A DNA stretch of 64,000 nt from Acidobacteriaceae bacterium. Its GTDB lineage: Bacteria > Acidobacteriota > Terriglobia > Terriglobales > Acidobacteriaceae. Position 1 is the stretch's first letter. Each line of letters begins with the position of its first letter. Below are positions 730 to 54,081 of this stretch, piece by piece. The notes under the pieces were generated by a model. The model was not told the origin of the DNA. It was given only the letters and a program-made list of their open reading frames with translations, and did no database searches. The position numbers and the translations under genes are program-made. The stretch spans positions 10,187 through 74,186 of the forward strand of contig PLHW01000019.1 of NCBI GenBank assembly GCA_003139095.1, read 5' to 3'.

Positions 730-763
730 AGCGCGAGCCGCTGAGTTGCCGGCGGCAAGCCAC

Positions 764-890
764 GAGCCACTAGTCTCGAGCCACGAGCAAACGAAACTGG
801 TTGTCGGGTTCCACCGAGGATTGTCATTCCGAGCGCAGCGAGGAATCTGCTCTTTGTGGCTCGACGCTCAAAGCTCGCGGCTCGCAGCTG
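764..890. repeat. Composite repeat: inverted heptanucleotide arrays around a palindromic repeat
   Basis: The mreB-mreC spacer holds heptads of the form GAGCNNN on the plus strand (764-791, including two GAGCCAC) and the same heptad on the minus strand at 856-890 (five units, NNNGCTC read on plus). CGAGCCAC at 777-784 is complementary to GTGGCTCG at 856-863, so the ends can pair. Between them, at 821-848, lies a copy of a dispersed palindromic repeat (TTGTCATTCC ... AGGAATCT). A further heptad-like stretch (ACTGANR type) runs from about 896 to 916, just before mreC. No gene fits here. Confidence 0.75.
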
Positions 891-924
891 CCTTCACTGA
901 CGACTGAGAGCTGATAGCCGTTTT

Positions 925-2571
925 ATGGAAGTCTTCGGCCGCTACCGCAACCTGATCGTACTCGTGGGCGTGCTCTTTGCCCAAATCCTGGGCCTGGCGG
1001 TCCAGGTCCGTCGCACTACAGACACCGAACCCACCCGTCTTATCCGCATCTGGGCGGTCGGCTCCGTTTCCCCTCTCGAAAAGGGACTGCTCTGGTTCCA
1101 GAACTCCACCGATAACATCTGGCACAACTATTTCTACCTGCGCGGGGTACGCGCGGAGAATCGCGAACTCAAGCATGAGATCGAGCAAATGCGCCTCGAA
1201 CAGGTGCGCATAACCCAGGACGCCGATCAGGCCCGGCGCCTGCAGGCGCTGCTCGCCTTCAAGGAACAATTCATCTCCGGGACCTTGGCCGCGCAGGTTA
1301 TCGGATCGAGCGGCAGCGAGCTTTCCCGCTCCGTCTACATCGACAAGGGCGAGCGCGACGGCCTGAAGCCCGATATGGCCGTCCTCACCAAAGACGGCAT
1401 CGTGGGCAAGGTACTCCGCGTCTATGGTTCCACCGCGCTCGTGCTCCTCATCGACGATCAGACCAGCGGCGTCGGGTCCCTGCTCGAAAAGTCGCGGCTC
1501 CAGGGCATTCTGCGGGGCACGCCCGCGGGCGCCGTTGTTCTCGAAAAGGTCATGAGCGACGAGACTGTGCCCATCGGTGAGCAGGTGGTTACCAGCGGCG
1601 GAGACGGCATCTTCCCAAAAGGTTTGCCGGTCGGCACCGTCACCGGAGTTTCCCCCGGCAGCGATCTTTTTCTTAATATCCGTGTGCGCCCTGCCGCCGA
1701 CCTCGGCCGCCTCGAAGAAGTCCTGGTCGTGACTAAAGTCGACGAGAAGCAAGCCGAACCCGATGAGACATCGCCGATGCGCGCCGTCGACATTCTGGCT
1801 GAGCGCTTGCCCACCGTGCCCCCAAAACCTGATGCAACTTCCGGCAGTCCCGCTCCCGGCGCCGTCGCTCCGGGTCCGCCCGCATCGAACGGCGTGGCCT
1901 CGAGTTCGCCGGCGATGAAACCTACTGGCACGAACTCTTCCGGTTCGACTTCTGCCGCGCCGAAGCCCGTTGCCTCGAACTCCTCCACACTGAAGTCGGG
2001 ATCTCCAAACTCGGCCGCGCCGGGCCCTGCTGCGGCGAACACTTTCGCGCCGAAGTCTGCTGCGCCGAAATCTGGTGCCGCAAAAACTGGAGCGTTGACT
2101 TCCGTTCCATCCGCCGTCCGCCCGGCAAACTCCAACGCCACCGCGAGCCAACCCGCACAACATCTCCGGTCCCAGCCAGCCGCCACGGGAAAGCCGAACG
2201 CACCGCCATCGGCCGCATCTGCAACGGCAGGGAACTCCGCTCCGCCAAAAACGGCAGGCAGTTCACCATCGGCAAAGCCGGTCACTCCCAGCGCAAGAAC
2301 TCCCGGCGCAGGCCTCGCCTCCACTGAAACGAAATCTGCGACGCCGCAGCACGATCCCGTGAGAAAGAATGCGGGTCCAACTCCACCGACGAAAGCGGCT
2401 TCTGCAAATCCATCGCCCGCAACGGCTGCTGGCGCTTCCACCACCAACTCGACAGCGACCAACTCCGCCACTTCCTCCGCCGCGAAGAAGCCGCCGGCTA
2501 AGCCCGTTGCCTCCGGCGCTGCCACTCATCCGCCCAAGCCGCAACCCGTGCCCGAGGACTCCCCGCAATAA
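925..2571 (+). CDS. mreC: Rod-shape determining protein MreC with long low-complexity C-terminal tail
   Basis: MreC is the inner-membrane scaffold that links MreB filaments to periplasmic wall synthases. A single membrane anchor is visible at about residues 10-28, then a coiled coil at about 70-115 (ENRELKHEIEQMRLEQ), then the MreC beta-barrel domain to about residue 275, including IDDQTSGVGSLLEKSR and LGRLEEVLVV. From about residue 295 to 548 the protein is a Pro/Ala/Ser/Thr/Asn/Lys tail with no family match that I can see. MreC proteins are usually 270-370 residues, so this one is unusually long. The ATG at 925 directly precedes the anchor. The TAA at 2569-2571 is followed two bases later by the mreD start. 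Confidence 0.95.
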   Translation: MEVFGRYRNLIVLVGVLFAQILGLAVQVRRTTDTEPTRLIRIWAVGSVSPLEKGLLWFQNSTDNIWHNYFYLRGVRAENRELKHEIEQMRLEQVRITQDADQARRLQALLAFKEQFISGTLAAQVIGSSGSELSRSVYIDKGERDGLKPDMAVLTKDGIVGKVLRVYGSTALVLLIDDQTSGVGSLLEKSRLQGILRGTPAGAVVLEKVMSDETVPIGEQVVTSGGDGIFPKGLPVGTVTGVSPGSDLFLNIRVRPAADLGRLEEVLVVTKVDEKQAEPDETSPMRAVDILAERLPTVPPKPDATSGSPAPGAVAPGPPASNGVASSSPAMKPTGTNSSGSTSAAPKPVASNSSTLKSGSPNSAAPGPAAANTFAPKSAAPKSGAAKTGALTSVPSAVRPANSNATASQPAQHLRSQPAATGKPNAPPSAASATAGNSAPPKTAGSSPSAKPVTPSARTPGAGLASTETKSATPQHDPVRKNAGPTPPTKAASANPSPATAAGASTTNSTATNSATSSAAKKPPAKPVASGAATHPPKPQPVPEDSPQ

Positions 2572-2572
2572 C

Positions 2573-3091
2573 GTGCCGATCACCTACACTTCGGGCGAGC
2601 AGGTTGAGGTTTACCGCTTCAGTCCCTTCGCGACTATTTCCATTCCGCTTGCCGCCATCCTGCTGCAGGCGATTCTGCCGCGCTACCTCCACTTCTTCAC
2701 CATCTTCGATCTTCCGCTGCTGGTCACCATCGGTTTCGCCACGGCCCGCCGCAACCCGCTCGCCGGACTGCTGACCGGCTGCCTGATCGGCATTTTCCAG
2801 GACGCGCTTACTCATCAGCCCATCGGGCTCTACGGAATCTCCAAGACCGTCGTCGGCTTCGCCGCTTCCTCGCTCGGCATCAAGATCGACGTAGAAAATT
2901 CCGGCGCGCGTTTTCTTCTCACCATCCTTTTTTATGTGGTCCATGAAGTGGTCTACTTCATGATCGCTCGCGGCCTCGTCGGCCTGCACATGGAATGGAG
3001 TTGGCCGCACGAAATCGGCTCCGGCGTAGCCAACGCCGCCCTCGGCATCTTCGTCTACGCGCTCCTTGATCGCGTTAAGCAGCGGACCTGA
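2573..3091 (+). CDS. mreD: Rod-shape determining protein MreD
   Basis: MreD is the small polytopic membrane partner of MreC in the elongasome. The 172-residue product has about five hydrophobic segments (IPLAAILLQAILP, FDLPLLVTIGFA, LAGLLTGCLIGIF, FLLTILFYVVHEVVYFM, AALGIFVYALL) and the usual MreD length. I choose the GTG at 2573, one base after the mreC stop. A longer open frame reaches back inside mreC, but its extra N-terminus is Arg/Pro-rich shadow translation of the mreC tail. Tight spacing implies translational coupling with mreC. The pbp2 (mrdA) and rodA genes that commonly follow mreD are not present; the next gene is on the opposite strand. Confidence 0.92.
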   Translation: MPITYTSGEQVEVYRFSPFATISIPLAAILLQAILPRYLHFFTIFDLPLLVTIGFATARRNPLAGLLTGCLIGIFQDALTHQPIGLYGISKTVVGFAASSLGIKIDVENSGARFLLTILFYVVHEVVYFMIARGLVGLHMEWSWPHEIGSGVANAALGIFVYALLDRVKQRT

Positions 3092-3141
3092 TTTTGTTGT
3101 GGGTACGCCTCGCCCGCGTGTGCGAATGAGCGGTGTTACCT

Positions 3142-3169
3142 GAAAACTGACAACCGAAAACCGAGCAAA
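3142..3169. repeat. Heptanucleotide tandem array (GANAACY type)
   Basis: Three to four consecutive 7-bp units of the type GAAAACT / GACAACC / GAAAACC sit in the short convergent spacer between mreD and the DUF92 gene. The period is exactly seven bases, as in the other arrays of this window, but the unit sequence differs. Confidence 0.5.
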
Positions 3170-3184
3170 ACTGGCAACTCACAC

Positions 3185-3925
3185 TCACAACCGATAGCCG
3201 ACAACACCGATCCCCGCAGTCAAGACGGTGGCCACAAAATTTACTCCCTGATTGCCGATCCACCCGCGCCGCTGAATCGTCGCGCCCATCAGGCTGTCCA
3301 ACAGCATCCCCACAAATCCGGCTACCACCGCGATCCACATTTCGCGCCGTGCCACCAACCCGCACACCGCCGCCAGGGCCGCGATCACCATGCCAGCGGC
3401 CAGTCCCGCCAATGTCCCTGAAGGCGTAACGCCTCCATCTGTCCCCGCCGGAACCCGTTTGCCGGTCGTGATCATCCATGCCTCGCGTCGCCGCGATTGC
3501 CCGATCTCGCTCGCCACCGTATCCGTCGCCGCCTCCGCCAGAGCAGCAACCGCAGCCAGTATCCACGCGCGATTTCCACTCGCTGCAAACACCAAAGCGC
3601 ACGCCGCTGCGACCGCGAGATTTGCCAGAACTTGCGTCGCATTTCTGCCCTCGCGCCGCTCGGCCAACCCTAGTTCCTGTTTGCGCCGATATCCCAGTCG
3701 CGTGCTTACCCACGTCACCGCGAACAACGCCGTCAGCACGGCAAACGCTCCCCGCCCCGCGCCCACAAACAGCGCGAGACATGCGAGTCCGCCGCCCACC
3801 GCTCCCGAGGATGACACCCCGCGCACCGCCCGCGCCAGCAGCGCAAAACACACGGTAATGCCCGCCGCCAAAGCCATTCGCTCCGGCGTAGCCGCCCACG
3901 CATAAGGTAGGAAGGGAATCGGCAT
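3185..3925 (-). CDS. DUF92 family integral membrane protein
   Basis: The product (246 residues from the ATG at 3925) is hydrophobic throughout, with about six to seven membrane segments. It carries the DUF92 hallmarks AEAATDTVASEIG in the middle and GTDGGVTPSGTLAG further on, with GFVGMLLDSLMGA towards the C-terminus. The DUF92/TMEM19 family includes plant VTE6, a phytyl-phosphate kinase, and is distantly like CTP-dependent polyprenol kinases. A role in isoprenoid-phosphate metabolism is therefore possible but unproven here. An upstream TTG (3943) would add six residues, but it lies within a repeat array and is less likely. The gene is convergent with mreD. Confidence 0.85.
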   Translation of the reverse strand: MPIPFLPYAWAATPERMALAAGITVCFALLARAVRGVSSSGAVGGGLACLALFVGAGRGAFAVLTALFAVTWVSTRLGYRRKQELGLAERREGRNATQVLANLAVAAACALVFAASGNRAWILAAVAALAEAATDTVASEIGQSRRREAWMITTGKRVPAGTDGGVTPSGTLAGLAAGMVIAALAAVCGLVARREMWIAVVAGFVGMLLDSLMGATIQRRGWIGNQGVNFVATVLTAGIGVVGYRL

Positions 3926-3933
3926 TTCTAGTA

Positions 3934-4083
3934 GCAGCTCCAAGCTCCAAGCGCCAAGCGCTCAGCAATCAATGCGAATCGAACAAGAGGGGTTTTGTCT
4001 CCAGCCTGTACTCACAGATTTTACTTGGACCTTGGATTCTGAGAGCTTGGAGCCTGCTGGCGGACCTTGGAGCTTGGAGCAAA
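3934..4083. repeat. Composite repeat: inverted heptanucleotide arrays upstream of ku
   Basis: Four heptads of CAAGCTC/CAAGCGC type (minus-strand GAGCTTG) occupy 3934-3961. After a core of about 80 bp, GAGCTTG-type heptads on the plus strand occupy 4043-4056 and 4070-4083. The arms are complementary, as in the mreB-mreC spacer. The whole spacer 3926-4317 contains no convincing gene; besides this element it holds the palindrome at 4281-4300. Confidence 0.7.
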
Positions 4084-4280
4084 GCCCAGACCCGGCGATC
4101 CCCGGTCGCCAACACCATATTCTGTGCACCCACCGTCCCAGCCCCGTCATCTAGTGCTTGGCCTTTTGATTCAGCCGTACGCTGGCGCCGGCAAATGTGC
4201 CCCATTTGCGCTACACTTCTGTACGCTCGGCGCGCTTCCCGCATCTGAAAATATCGCCGAGTTGTGGCGCGCAGCTTCCC

Positions 4281-4300
4281 AGACGAGGCCTGCCTCGTCT
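4281..4300. repeat. Perfect 20-bp palindrome in the ku leader
   Basis: AGACGAGGCCTGCCTCGTCT has arms AGACGAGGC and GCCTCGTCT around CT. It ends seven bases before the ku Shine-Dalgarno sequence (AAGGG, 4307-4311) and 17 bases before the ATG. A related hairpin with arms GGAGACGGG and CCCGTCTCC lies at 60205-60227, so it is probably a dispersed intergenic repeat; a regulatory role is also possible. Confidence 0.6.
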
Positions 4301-4317
4301 CTATGCAAGGGTGAATT

Positions 4318-5151
4318 ATGGCAGCTTCAGTCTGGTCCGGTTATCTGACGTTTGGTCTCATCTCCATGCCCGTGCGTCTTTTCTCGGGCGCGCGCAGCAG
4401 TGGAATCTCTTTCAACCAGCTTCACCGCACCGATCTCCATCGCGTGAAGCAGCAACTCATCTGCTCGCTTGACGGCCAGGTCCTCGAGCGCAGCGAAATC
4501 GTCAAAGGCTACGAGTACCGCAAGGACGAGTACGTCATCGTGGAGCCCGACGAGATCAAGGCCATCGAACCCAAGACCGCGAAGACCATGGAGATTCTCG
4601 AATTCGTCAAGACCAGTGACGTGGATCCCGTTTACTTCGAGTCATCGTATTACATGGTTCCCGAAGAGGCGGGCCGCCGCCCCTATGCGCTCCTCACCAA
4701 GGCTCTCGAAGAGAGCGAATACGTCGCTATTGCCAAGCTCACCATGCACAACCGCGAGTACACGGTTTTCCTGCGCCCACACAAGGGCGGCATGATGCTT
4801 CACACCATGTACTACTCCGAAGAGGTGCGCGAGGTCGAAGAATTCGGCGCGCCCGATGTCGAAATCAAAGAAGCCGAAATCAAGGTCGCCCACCAGTTGA
4901 TCGAAGCCCTCGCCGGTGACTGGGACCCGGAAAAATATCACGATACGTTTCAGGACAATCTGAAGAAGCTGATCGAGACCAAGCTCGAGGGCGGCACCGT
5001 CGAGGCCGTCGAAAAGCCAAAGAAGCTGGCGCCCGTTGTCGACCTGATGGCCGCTTTGAAACAGAGCCTCGAAAACGCCAAGAAGCCGCCCGCTTCAGAA
5101 AAGGACGCGGAGCGCGAAGCTCCCGCCGCAAAAAAGAGAAGTCGCGGGTGA
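4318..5151 (+). CDS. ku: Non-homologous end-joining protein Ku
   Basis: Bacterial Ku is a homodimeric ring that binds DNA double-strand ends and recruits ligase LigD. The 277-residue product has the expected N-terminus (ASVWSGYLTFGLISMPVRLFSGA), the VKGYEYRKDEYVIVEPDEIKAIEPK segment around residues 60-85, and the Ku core through about residue 225 (HQLIEALAGDWDPEKYHDTF). The C-terminal 45 residues are Lys/Ala/Glu-rich, as in many bacterial Ku proteins, where this tail contacts DNA. The ATG at 4318 has an AAGGG Shine-Dalgarno six bases upstream. No ligD is present in the window, so the ligase must be elsewhere or absent. Confidence 0.96.
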   Translation: MAASVWSGYLTFGLISMPVRLFSGARSSGISFNQLHRTDLHRVKQQLICSLDGQVLERSEIVKGYEYRKDEYVIVEPDEIKAIEPKTAKTMEILEFVKTSDVDPVYFESSYYMVPEEAGRRPYALLTKALEESEYVAIAKLTMHNREYTVFLRPHKGGMMLHTMYYSEEVREVEEFGAPDVEIKEAEIKVAHQLIEALAGDWDPEKYHDTFQDNLKKLIETKLEGGTVEAVEKPKKLAPVVDLMAALKQSLENAKKPPASEKDAEREAPAAKKRSRG

Positions 5152-5155
5152 GAGC

Positions 5156-5268
5156 GTCGTTGGTCGTTATTCGTTGGGAATCCGAAATTGCTGCGATCCT
5201 CTTTTCGCGGGAGACGGAGCGACCTTCTCCACCGCCCCGCGAACGACCGCCGACCACAGACCAGAGAC
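5156..5268. repeat. Composite repeat: inverted heptanucleotide arrays after ku
   Basis: Three heptads of GTCGTTG type start five bases after the ku stop (5156-5176). Four heptads ending in GAC (first unit GAACGAC) occupy 5241-5268. The two sets are approximate reverse complements and flank a core of about 64 bp. This is the third copy of the same architecture in the first 5.3 kb, with a different unit sequence each time. Confidence 0.65.
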
Positions 5269-5343
5269 TGCCCCCATTTCCCCTCGAATGCAGATTCCCG
5301 CTACAATATCGGTTTCCGTGAAACTTAATTCCATGGAGTCTGA

Positions 5344-52402: not shown

Positions 52403-52707
52403 GGCGCCTCGTAGGAAGTTTGGGGAACGCGCACATGGTAACACGCTGGCTAGGAGCTTCGAGCTGTGAGCTGCGAGCTACGAGCTTCGAGCCAACGGCG
52501 CGGGTCGTGGATGTGCGTTCGCGGGCCGGGATTGGCGGATTCGCGGATGGTGGTCAAAATCGGAAGTAAAATCTTGTAGATGGAAATAATAATGAGTAAC
52601 GTTCGCGGGCGGGGACGCGTCCAACTAGAAGGGGAATTCCGTCTTATCCCGATTGGCCATCGGGGGTATAATCGAGGCACGAAGCAGGTTCCCTCGCGGG
52701 GTGTGAT
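52403..52707. other. Spacer with heptad array upstream of the M48 gene
   Basis: These 305 bases hold no gene. Five perfect heptads of GAGCTNN plus a partial one lie at 52454-52493. The AT-richer stretch near 52555-52600 may hold a promoter. Confidence 0.45.
52454..52493. repeat. Heptanucleotide tandem array (GAGCTNN)
   Basis: Five consecutive 7-bp units share GAGCT with two variable bases (TC, GT, GC, AC, TC), followed by GAGCC. This is the cleanest heptad array in the window. I do not see an inverted partner nearby. Confidence 0.8.
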
Positions 52708-54039
52708 ATGTCATGGCGTAAAGCGCTGATCGGCTTGAGTTTAGTGGTTTTGATGGGAGTTTTAGCGGCGGCGCAGGAGCAAAGTGCGCCGAGCGCGAAC
52801 GCGCCGTCGACCAGTACGTCTACGAAAGAGCAGGGGAGCCAGGCGCCAAGTGCTTCGACGCCGACGTCGCCGGATCCTACGGCGCCGACGCAGAGCGCGC
52901 CCGCTCCGAGCGCGCCCGCTCCGAGCACTGCTCCGCAATCAGAACCCACGCAGACCGCGCCAGCGGGCGAGTCGCCAGCGACTACGCCGACGACGGTGCC
53001 GACCGATAAGCCGGGTGCGGATGAGTCGCCGACGAACGCGGCGGGTGATTCCGCGCAGACGCCACCGCCGGTTGTGCAGGAGCCGGATCCGAACAAAGTG
53101 AAGCACGACGGCAGCATCAATGACGTGGATGCGATCGGGAACCGCAAGGTGGGCGGGCGTGGCCTGGGCGACTGGTACTCGCTGGAGACCGAGATCAAAA
53201 TCGGCAAACAGTATGCGATGCAAGTCGACAACAGCGTCAAGATGGTGACCGACCCGGTGGTGACGGAGTACGTGAACCGGATTGGACAGAACCTGGTACG
53301 GAATTCGGACGCGCAGGTGCCGTTCACCATTAAAGTGATCGACTCCGATGAGGTGAATGCATTTGCGCTGCCGGGGGGATTTTTCTACGTGAACTCGGGG
53401 TTGATTCTGGCGGCGGACGAAGAGGCGGAACTGGCGGGCGTGATGGCGCATGAGATTTCGCACGTGTGCGCACGGCACGCGATGCGGCAGATGACGCGGG
53501 CGAATTGGGCGAATATCGGGACGATTCCACTGATTTTTGTGGGCGGGGGAATTGGATATGCGGTGTATGAGGCGGCGGGGCTGGGGCTGCCGATGACGTT
53601 CATGAAGTTCCAGCGGAATTTTGAGGCGGAGGCGGACTTCCTGGGTCTGCAATACATGTATAAGACCGGGTACGACCCGCAGGCGTTTATCAGCTTCTTC
53701 GAGAAGATTCAGGCGAAAGAGAAGAAGAAGCCGGGGACGCTGGCCAAGGCATTCGCGTCGCATCCGCAGACACCGGACCGGATCGAGAAATCGCAGCAGG
53801 AGATTGCGACGATCCTGCCGGCGAAGGCGCAGTACATCGTGTCGACGTCGGAGTTCGACGAGGTGAAGGCGCGGCTGGCGATGATCGAGAACCGGCACAA
53901 GGTGAACGAGCAGAAAGACAGCACGAAGCCGACGCTGCGGCGGACATCAAACACGGATAAGTCAGGATCGGATAAGAGCGGCGACGACGACCGGCCAACG
54001 CTGAAACGGCGGCCGGACGGGGATTCGGGGCAGAATTAA
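52708..54039 (+). CDS. M48-family metalloprotease (BepA/Oma1-like), exported
   Basis: The 443-residue product has a signal peptide (SWRKALIGLSLVVLMGVLAAAQ), then about 95 residues of low-complexity Ser/Thr/Pro/Ala/Gln (24-120). The M48 core is at about 150-340: VTEYVNRIGQNLVRNSD, NAFALPGGFFYVNSGLI, EAELAGVMAHEISHVCARHAMRQM with the HExxH zinc motif near 252-256, and NFEAEADFLGLQYMY with the third ligand Glu. A basic/acidic tail follows. The family degrades misfolded envelope proteins; BepA also helps outer-membrane assembly, but the TPR domain of BepA is not present here. The ATG at 52708 fits the signal peptide. Confidence 0.92.
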   Translation: MSWRKALIGLSLVVLMGVLAAAQEQSAPSANAPSTSTSTKEQGSQAPSASTPTSPDPTAPTQSAPAPSAPAPSTAPQSEPTQTAPAGESPATTPTTVPTDKPGADESPTNAAGDSAQTPPPVVQEPDPNKVKHDGSINDVDAIGNRKVGGRGLGDWYSLETEIKIGKQYAMQVDNSVKMVTDPVVTEYVNRIGQNLVRNSDAQVPFTIKVIDSDEVNAFALPGGFFYVNSGLILAADEEAELAGVMAHEISHVCARHAMRQMTRANWANIGTIPLIFVGGGIGYAVYEAAGLGLPMTFMKFQRNFEAEADFLGLQYMYKTGYDPQAFISFFEKIQAKEKKKPGTLAKAFASHPQTPDRIEKSQQEIATILPAKAQYIVSTSEFDEVKARLAMIENRHKVNEQKDSTKPTLRRTSNTDKSGSDKSGDDDRPTLKRRPDGDSGQN

Positions 54040-54081
54040 GTAAGAAGTAAGAAGGCAGAAGTAAGAAGGCAGAAGTAAAAG
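54040..54081. repeat. Heptanucleotide tandem array after the M48 gene
   Basis: Six consecutive 7-bp units, GTAAGAA alternating with GGCAGAA, begin at the base after the M48 stop codon. The units are unrelated in sequence to the GAGCTNN array upstream of the same gene, but the period is identical. Confidence 0.85.

Follow-up and report, generated by a model that had tools for sequence, protein, structure and literature searches.

A 64,000-nucleotide stretch of a draft Acidobacteriaceae genome (GenBank assembly GCA_003139095.1, contig PLHW01000019.1, positions 10,187 to 74,186; G000:C33:10187-74186 in our numbering, and hereafter the window) contains three intergenic elements in which a short array of seven-nucleotide units – heptads – is followed, after a core, by a related array on the other strand. 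Here, we compare these elements with similar ones in the same genome and its relatives, and conclude, with a probability of about 0.7, that they are non-coding, REPIN-like, non-autonomous members of a class of palindromic insertions whose coding members carry one gene for a 23S rRNA intervening-sequence protein (IVP; family PF05635/TIGR02436, S23p), a four-helix bundle. The argument is built on the arms themselves, their fixed polarity, their presence and absence between species, the turnover of whole elements, the framing of IVP genes, and the correspondence between IVP clade, arm unit and hairpin; that the IVP mobilises the elements is what we infer from these. The initial annotation had described composite elements bounded on both sides by inverted heptanucleotide arrays, and all three places are as it described them, with ends able to pair; the observation is real, and larger than first seen.

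The genome (G000) is a 5.53-Mb draft, 98% complete, whose acidobacterial nature is also apparent from its genes and from the named genomes in which its repeats recur. It was compared with 23 congeners, among them G015 with one 2-Mb contig. Arrays were surveyed over about 655 kb of G000 and 1.2 Mb of G015 (1.85 Mb in total), with a lag-7 array threshold of 15/21 in the G000 sample, and inverted arms were counted as matched at a score of at least 14. Gene edges are approximate because they were called with a simple purpose-written gene caller.

Heptad arms frame IVP genes

When inverted pairs with longer cores were sought, one was found at G015:C10:809447-809897. Its core of 370 bp codes for a protein that matches PF05635 (8e-35) and TIGR02436 (6e-32), and the 3′ heptads encode the C-terminal tail of this protein. 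PF05635 has about 120 listed matches in the genus (some are fragments of one gene), distributed over 23 of the 24 genomes, and 53 of the 59 good IVP genes with enough flanking sequence lie between matched inverted arms. So do all ten tested members of a divergent, low-scoring IVP subfamily, compared with one of 308 control genes of like length, where the arms are an ordinary G+C-rich palindrome. The mean identity of IVP arms is 0.62 at lag 7, versus 0.19 at lag 5 and 0.22 at lag 8.

The association extends beyond the genus. Matched arms are present at 27 of the 30 best IVP genes of the phylum, with a period mostly of 7 and sometimes of 8, and at 10 of 10 tested IVP genes on plasmids (nine cyanobacterial, one from Gemmatimonadota). 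The arm units of the cyanobacterial plasmid genes resemble the classical cyanobacterial heptanucleotide repeats, and in Anabaena sp. 90 and Pseudanabaena galeata (L450, L453) the plasmid-borne IVP gene is located between cas6 and cas4. The elements examined all lie between or beside protein genes, and none is inserted in 23S rRNA. The coding relatives found encode IVP and no known transposase domain, unlike the full-length relatives of miniature inverted-repeat elements of a DDE transposon; as the initial annotation held, these are not standard insertion sequences. The IVP protein gives a weak score against Avd, a protein of diversity-generating retroelements, and the structure of its homologue XCC0516 (PDB 2gsc) has five chains; XCC0516 has been described as a homopentamer of four-helix bundles (PMC4990558).

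Inverted pairing exceeds chance

Among adjacent period-7 array pairs in the G000 and G015 sample, 35 of 43 are inverted and one is direct, and in the first sample 68% of neighbouring array pairs score at least 14 in inverted orientation versus 4.2% of random array pairs. Period 7 is prominent outside genes (at 15/21, the G000 sample has 58 intergenic segments and 7 coding ones). In seventy intergenic inverted repeats chosen by complementarity alone, identity rises to 45% at lag 7 and to 42% at lag 14, compared with 28% at lag 8 and about 24% for most of the remaining lags. Inverted repeats scoring at least 14 were found in 46 of 671 spacers and in none of the shuffles. The suggestion that pairing exceeds chance is therefore upheld: shuffled sequence fails to give the inverted heptad pairs, and in related genomes the arrays are mostly paired rather than always single.

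The sample contains both intergenic tandem heptads, as in the short tandemly repeated repetitive sequences (STRRs), and heptad arrays paired across the two strands over varying distances, as described for the class 3 sites of Geobacter. Some G000 arrays have period 8 in the same inverted layout. Inverted period-8 pairs (GTTTCAAG type) on contigs C22 (6636-6975) and C45 (979-1103) of G000 have the unit of the IVP element G000:C10:13543.

Each window element was compared with 400 dinucleotide shuffles. For element 1, an inverted score of 15 was reached by one shuffle, a lag-7 score of 15/21 by one, and both jointly by none; for element 2, neither the inverted score of 15 nor the lag-7 score of 18/21 was reached. 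The weakest case is element 3: no shuffle reached its lag-7 score of 15/21 and its period is significant, but 59 reached its inverted score of 9, so that its pairing alone is not.

Anatomy and polarity

An element, on either strand, consists of 5′-type heptads (about four to five copies), a core, and the reverse complement of such heptads. By eye, many types of 5′ arm (CAGTTNT, GAGCNNC, TAGCTNC) fit the pattern NAGYNNY, with CAGGTNT, GTCGTTN and AATTNGT as variants. Small non-coding hairpins outnumber the coding members and have matched arms of about 31 bp with about 26 bp between the arrays. The median matched arm is 33 bp (4.7 heptads) in IVP elements and 31 bp in hairpins, a stem of about 30 bp as in the intervening sequences (IVSs) of 23S rRNA.

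Among pairs of elements with a common unit, 123 agree in polarity and 5 disagree. CAGTTNT forms the 5′ arm in 14 of the 24 genomes of the genus and the opposite order is found in none (38 occurrences against 0); over 297 genomes of the phylum the corresponding counts, which include nested matches, are 50 and 3, and at least ten phyla contain the CAGTTNT palindrome. Single arrays by gene edges follow the polarity rule relative to the edge, at start and stop codons alike, in 52 of 61 cases. Because a palindrome is identical on both strands, this fixed polarity points to a property of the element and not of the neighbouring gene. Just inside the arms, an AAAAC/AAACC motif is present in 5 of 35 hairpins and 19 of 63 IVP elements, versus about 1 and about 3 for shuffled bases; purine/pyrimidine skew was uninformative as a marker of polarity.

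Arm units correspond to IVP clades

The IVP tree groups by arm unit. In the spacer that reads as dprA-topA, well-supported IVP clades have CAG[CT]TNT, [TG][AG]GCTNT, GAGCNNC and TAGCTNC arms. IVP identity correlates with arm similarity over pairs not recognised as the same site (Mantel r 0.376, 0 of 2000 permutations), a value to be read as an upper estimate because some same-site pairs slipped past the filter; within genomes, where the sites differ by definition, the correlation is weaker (Spearman 0.38). Of the non-coding hairpins of G000 and G015, 86% have the unit of an own-genome IVP element; when the IVP sets are taken from other genomes the share is 30% (32 of 5000 permutations). At eight orthologous spacers of the genus the arrays have the unit of an own-genome IVP in 61% versus 39% (1 of 5000 permutations). 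A genome-specific palette of units was not significant from the spacer arrays alone, and became so only against IVP arms. Many dispersed hairpins are matched to one gene, as in REPIN/RAYT systems, with IVP in the place of RAYT.

The correspondence includes two of the window elements. The AGCTCCA unit of element 2 matches the IVP element G000:C11:6075 with a score of 22 (next best in the genus, 11), and the GTCGTTN unit of element 3 matches G000:C31:83915 with a score of 19. Two segments of element 2 (window positions 4024-4078 and 3936-3965) also match G000:C11:6502-6549.

Whole elements turn over between species

In one operon compared over about 20 congeners, most coding flanks share 74-82% identity with G015, whereas the spacers differ in unit and core; despite the changed sequence, they mostly keep the order stop codon, array, core, inverted array, start codon. 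Unit and core change likewise, with the layout kept, at mreB-mreC and in a second region, and in a divergent spacer arrays are present in some species and missing from others that retain the conserved flanking sequence. Where loops are homologous the units agree in 14 of 17 pairs, which implies that elements change as wholes, arms plus core. For the same reason – homologous loops go with the same unit – rewriting of both arms in place around a retained core is disfavoured, three marginal exceptions being near chance expectation. A single mobile element with a fixed core was rejected, as the loops of heptad hairpins in the sample have no second copy within a genome apart from arm-like matches.

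Empty sites in a close relative, which the initial annotation had thought worth seeking, are shown for coding members. The IVP element at G000:C48:93593 (octads GTTATTGA) fills the interval from a TAG stop codon to the ATG of an isocitrate-dehydrogenase-like gene, where the G015 spacer is 20 bp, and that at G000:C19:75396 (AATTTGT) lies between genes reading as nuoD and nuoE, where the G015 spacer is 16 bp. At the site of an IVP element in G008/G009, G015 holds a non-coding hairpin of another unit.

A spacer of G033 (L108), the orthologue of that at about 828253-828370 of G015:C10, contains three tandem copies of an entire heptad hairpin together with its flank. A divergent spacer at G015:C10 about 529480-529791 and its orthologues contain non-coding blocks conserved throughout the genus (GACCGCCTCCTGC, TTAGACCGCC, CCCTTTGGAATGTTAGAATT), a possible promoter or leader.

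A proposed mechanism and its alternatives

We propose that an IVP, a pentamer in one solved relative, would bind the heptad arms cognate to it, in the form of an RNA or a DNA hairpin, and would act in trans to spread or keep hairpins, so that coding and non-coding members are copied alike; RAYT transposases are thought to do likewise for REPINs. With arms of nearly five heptads, one subunit of the pentamer might, speculatively, contact each heptad, and a guess at the copying route is a hairpin intermediate of RNA or single-stranded DNA. Operons may tolerate the elements for two reasons: these fill spacers, and RNase III could excise the hairpin from the transcript, as in 23S rRNA intervening sequences. 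We lean, at a little better than even odds, towards a broader version in which a transposase-less mobile class spans several phyla, pentameric IVPs recognising arms of about five heptads and propagating both themselves and hairpins that lack an open reading frame (ORF), with much of the heptamer periodicity of bacterial intergenic DNA as its footprint.

Several points weigh against the main explanation, beyond the upper-bound nature of the Mantel correlation. Movement was not observed, the two empty sites, where coding identity is about 75-83%, show no evident target duplication, and we know of no catalytic activity of IVP. The hairpin loops do not resemble shortened IVP genes, nor do they recur within a genome. 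The GAGC (GAGCNNC) unit of element 1 has no IVP partner in the 98%-complete G000 assembly; GAGC-armed IVP genes are present in G001 and G034. The one congener without IVP still carries an array in one of three spacers; its use as a natural knock-out was dropped, there being too few spacers. The gene caller and the assemblies are rough, and some IVP matches are broken genes.

An alternative is that the arrays are paired sites of a global regulator (IHF/HU), or a substitute for the Shine-Dalgarno sequence, kept by selection on the neighbouring genes. Both have been proposed in print, IHF/HU for Geobacter (PMC2700814) and a translation signal for TAACTGA repeats (PMC4679880), and 55% of arrays do lie within 15 bp of a gene edge, versus 33% for random placement in the same spacer. 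A translation signal is, however, unsupported by the gene-edge statistics, and a regulatory role in general is made improbable by an orientation set by the side of the spacer and not by start or stop codon, by units that differ between species at the same spacer, by array-free spacers of the same genes, and by the arms at IVP genes, which it leaves unexplained. An origin by neutral mutation, with slippage building the tandem repeats, template switching at hairpins copying one arm to the other and IVP genes incidental, appears equally improbable. It would account for arms that are somewhat more alike within an element than those of the same type elsewhere (mean 21.1 versus 17.1, own partner above the mean in 23 of 32), but it gives neither a period of 7 nor a fixed polarity, and it leaves the unit retained by homologous loops (14 of 17 pairs), the sharing of units between hairpins and IVPs of one genome, and the enrichment at IVP genes without a cause.

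We regard as less probable again that the elements are REPINs moved by a Y1 (RAYT) transposase, with IVP as cargo. Y1 genes are present in nine of ten genomes tested and 14 of 20 (L329-L348) have inverted flanking repeats, yet the best-scoring of these repeats are G+C-rich palindromes lacking heptads, G296 has 11 CAGTT palindrome matches despite having no Y1 gene, and the unit follows the IVP clade; the Y1-flanking palindromes probably belong to a RAYT/REPIN system of their own that these genomes also carry. Chance or a low-complexity artefact might produce the pairing of element 3 taken by itself (59 of 400 shuffles), but is refuted for the class by the shuffles and by the other periods, and we give it almost no credence.

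Relation to known repeats

The closest comparisons for the IVP-framing elements are the IVSs of 23S rRNA, of which short ORF-less forms exist too (Salmonella). In Coxiella burnetii the same protein family is encoded in the loop of a stem of about 28-bp terminal inverted repeats, and the IVS has been described as selfish, with mobility proposed (PMC4990558). The present elements differ in occupying spacers between protein genes in place of 23S rRNA helices and in having tandem heptads as arms, IVS stems being compared by description only. With REPIN/RAYT systems (PMC3116915) they share inverted pairs, long co-evolution and many non-autonomous hairpins per genome that are type-matched to one gene; they are distinguished by an IVP in place of a Y1 tyrosine transposase, by heptad arrays as arms and by unique loops. 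The best reading is of a class of IVS-like elements outside rRNA with REPIN-like derivatives.

The initial annotation took inverted heptad pairs to be unreported, but they have been published for Xanthomonas (PMC4692102) and Geobacter (PMC2700814), so the layout is not new. In Xanthomonas, GGGAATC arrays of about four units form 70 and 75 convergent pairs in two genomes, and these and the Nostoc GGGGA(C/T)T heptads have been read as G-quadruplex elements (PMC4692102). Both are intergenic and those of Xanthomonas are inverted as here; no link to IVP was drawn, though XCC0516 is a Xanthomonas campestris protein. In Geobacter metallireducens, sets of five tandem heptanucleotides are paired on opposite strands and have been interpreted as IHF/HU sites (PMC2700814). 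By description, the class 1-3 sites of that report resemble the present elements: tandem heptads (MTYCTGA), or else octads, lie on the two strands with a variable distance between them. MTYCTGA is the AGAAGTC unit of the divergent IVP subfamily (L409, L415); unlike here, there are only eight heptad pairs, and no link to IVP was made. The cyanobacterial STRRs and the TAACTGA repeats of Beggiatoaceae (PMC4679880) have the same period of 7. TAACTGA is a rotation of ACTGATA, a 3′-type unit here, and units similar to these repeats form arms around IVP genes on cyanobacterial plasmids, although TAACTGA sets were reported as direct repeats with one inverted case (PMC4679880). No paper joining heptad arrays with IVP genes was found in a search that left most subscription journals outside and does not establish priority; the link appears to be new.

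The link offers a testable answer to the origin of the common bacterial seven-base repeats. The IVP family has long been without a known function, and both become testable together, the prediction being that every IVP favours its own heptad. The link would unite STRRs, TAACTGA sets, the paired sites of Geobacter and the GGGAATC pairs of Xanthomonas as one family, and it cautions against taking such repeats first as regulatory sites.

The three elements in the window

Element 1 lies in the mreB-mreC spacer (MreB read from sequence), element 2 between the DUF92 and Ku genes, and element 3 between Ku and the next gene (Table 1). No ORF of the PF05635/S23p family is present within any of them. Tandem Repeats Finder (TRF) reports repeats at 758-788, 3936-3959, 4062-4080 and 5156-5177. 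The description in the initial annotation holds for all three places, with corrections: an additional array follows the 3′ arm of element 1, whose core holds a dispersed repeat, and the right arms of element 2 lie at 4043-4053 and about 4060-4092.

Table 1. Positions of the arms and cores of the three elements in the window.
Feature	Position	Strand	Remarks
Element 1, 5′ arm, GAGCCAC-type heptads	748..790	+	past mreB stop codon (727-729); inverted score 15 with 856-893
Element 1, core, palindromic repeat within the loop, GTCATTCCGAGCGCAGCGAGGAATC, dispersed in the genome	823..847	+	exact pattern matches
Element 1, 3′ arm, GAGCCAC-type heptads on opposite strand (GTGGCTCGACGCTCAAAGCTCGCGGCTCGCAGC)	856..893	-	inverted pairing
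Extra 3′-type array after element 1, CTGANAN units	895..924	+	ends at mreC start codon (925)
Element 2, 5′ arm, AGCTCCA heptads	3928..3974	+	upstream of DUF92 gene (complement of 3185-3943), overlaps its start
Element 2, 3′ arms, TGGAGCT heptads	4043..4053 and about 4060..4092	-	inverted pairing, TRF
Element 3, 5′ arm, GTCGTTN heptads	5156..5177	+	past Ku stop codon (5149-5151)
Element 3, 3′ arm, CGAACGACC-type heptads	5240..5271	-	period-7 scan

CTGANAN-type arrays occupy the same place as the extra array in most congeners. The palindromic repeat nested in the loop of element 1 has five exact pattern copies in the genome and more in congeners; as GTCATTCCGAGCGNAGCGAGGAATC it lies at window positions 823-847 and on contigs C14, C22, C24 and C45 of G000, and a related form, GTCATCCTGAGC, is at the equivalent place in several congeners. 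Elsewhere in the window, a lone GAGCTNC heptad array lies at 52454-52492 with no evident partner nearby, and an AAGTAAG/AGAAGTAAGAAGGC array with periods of 7 and 14 lies at a gene end (54038-54078).

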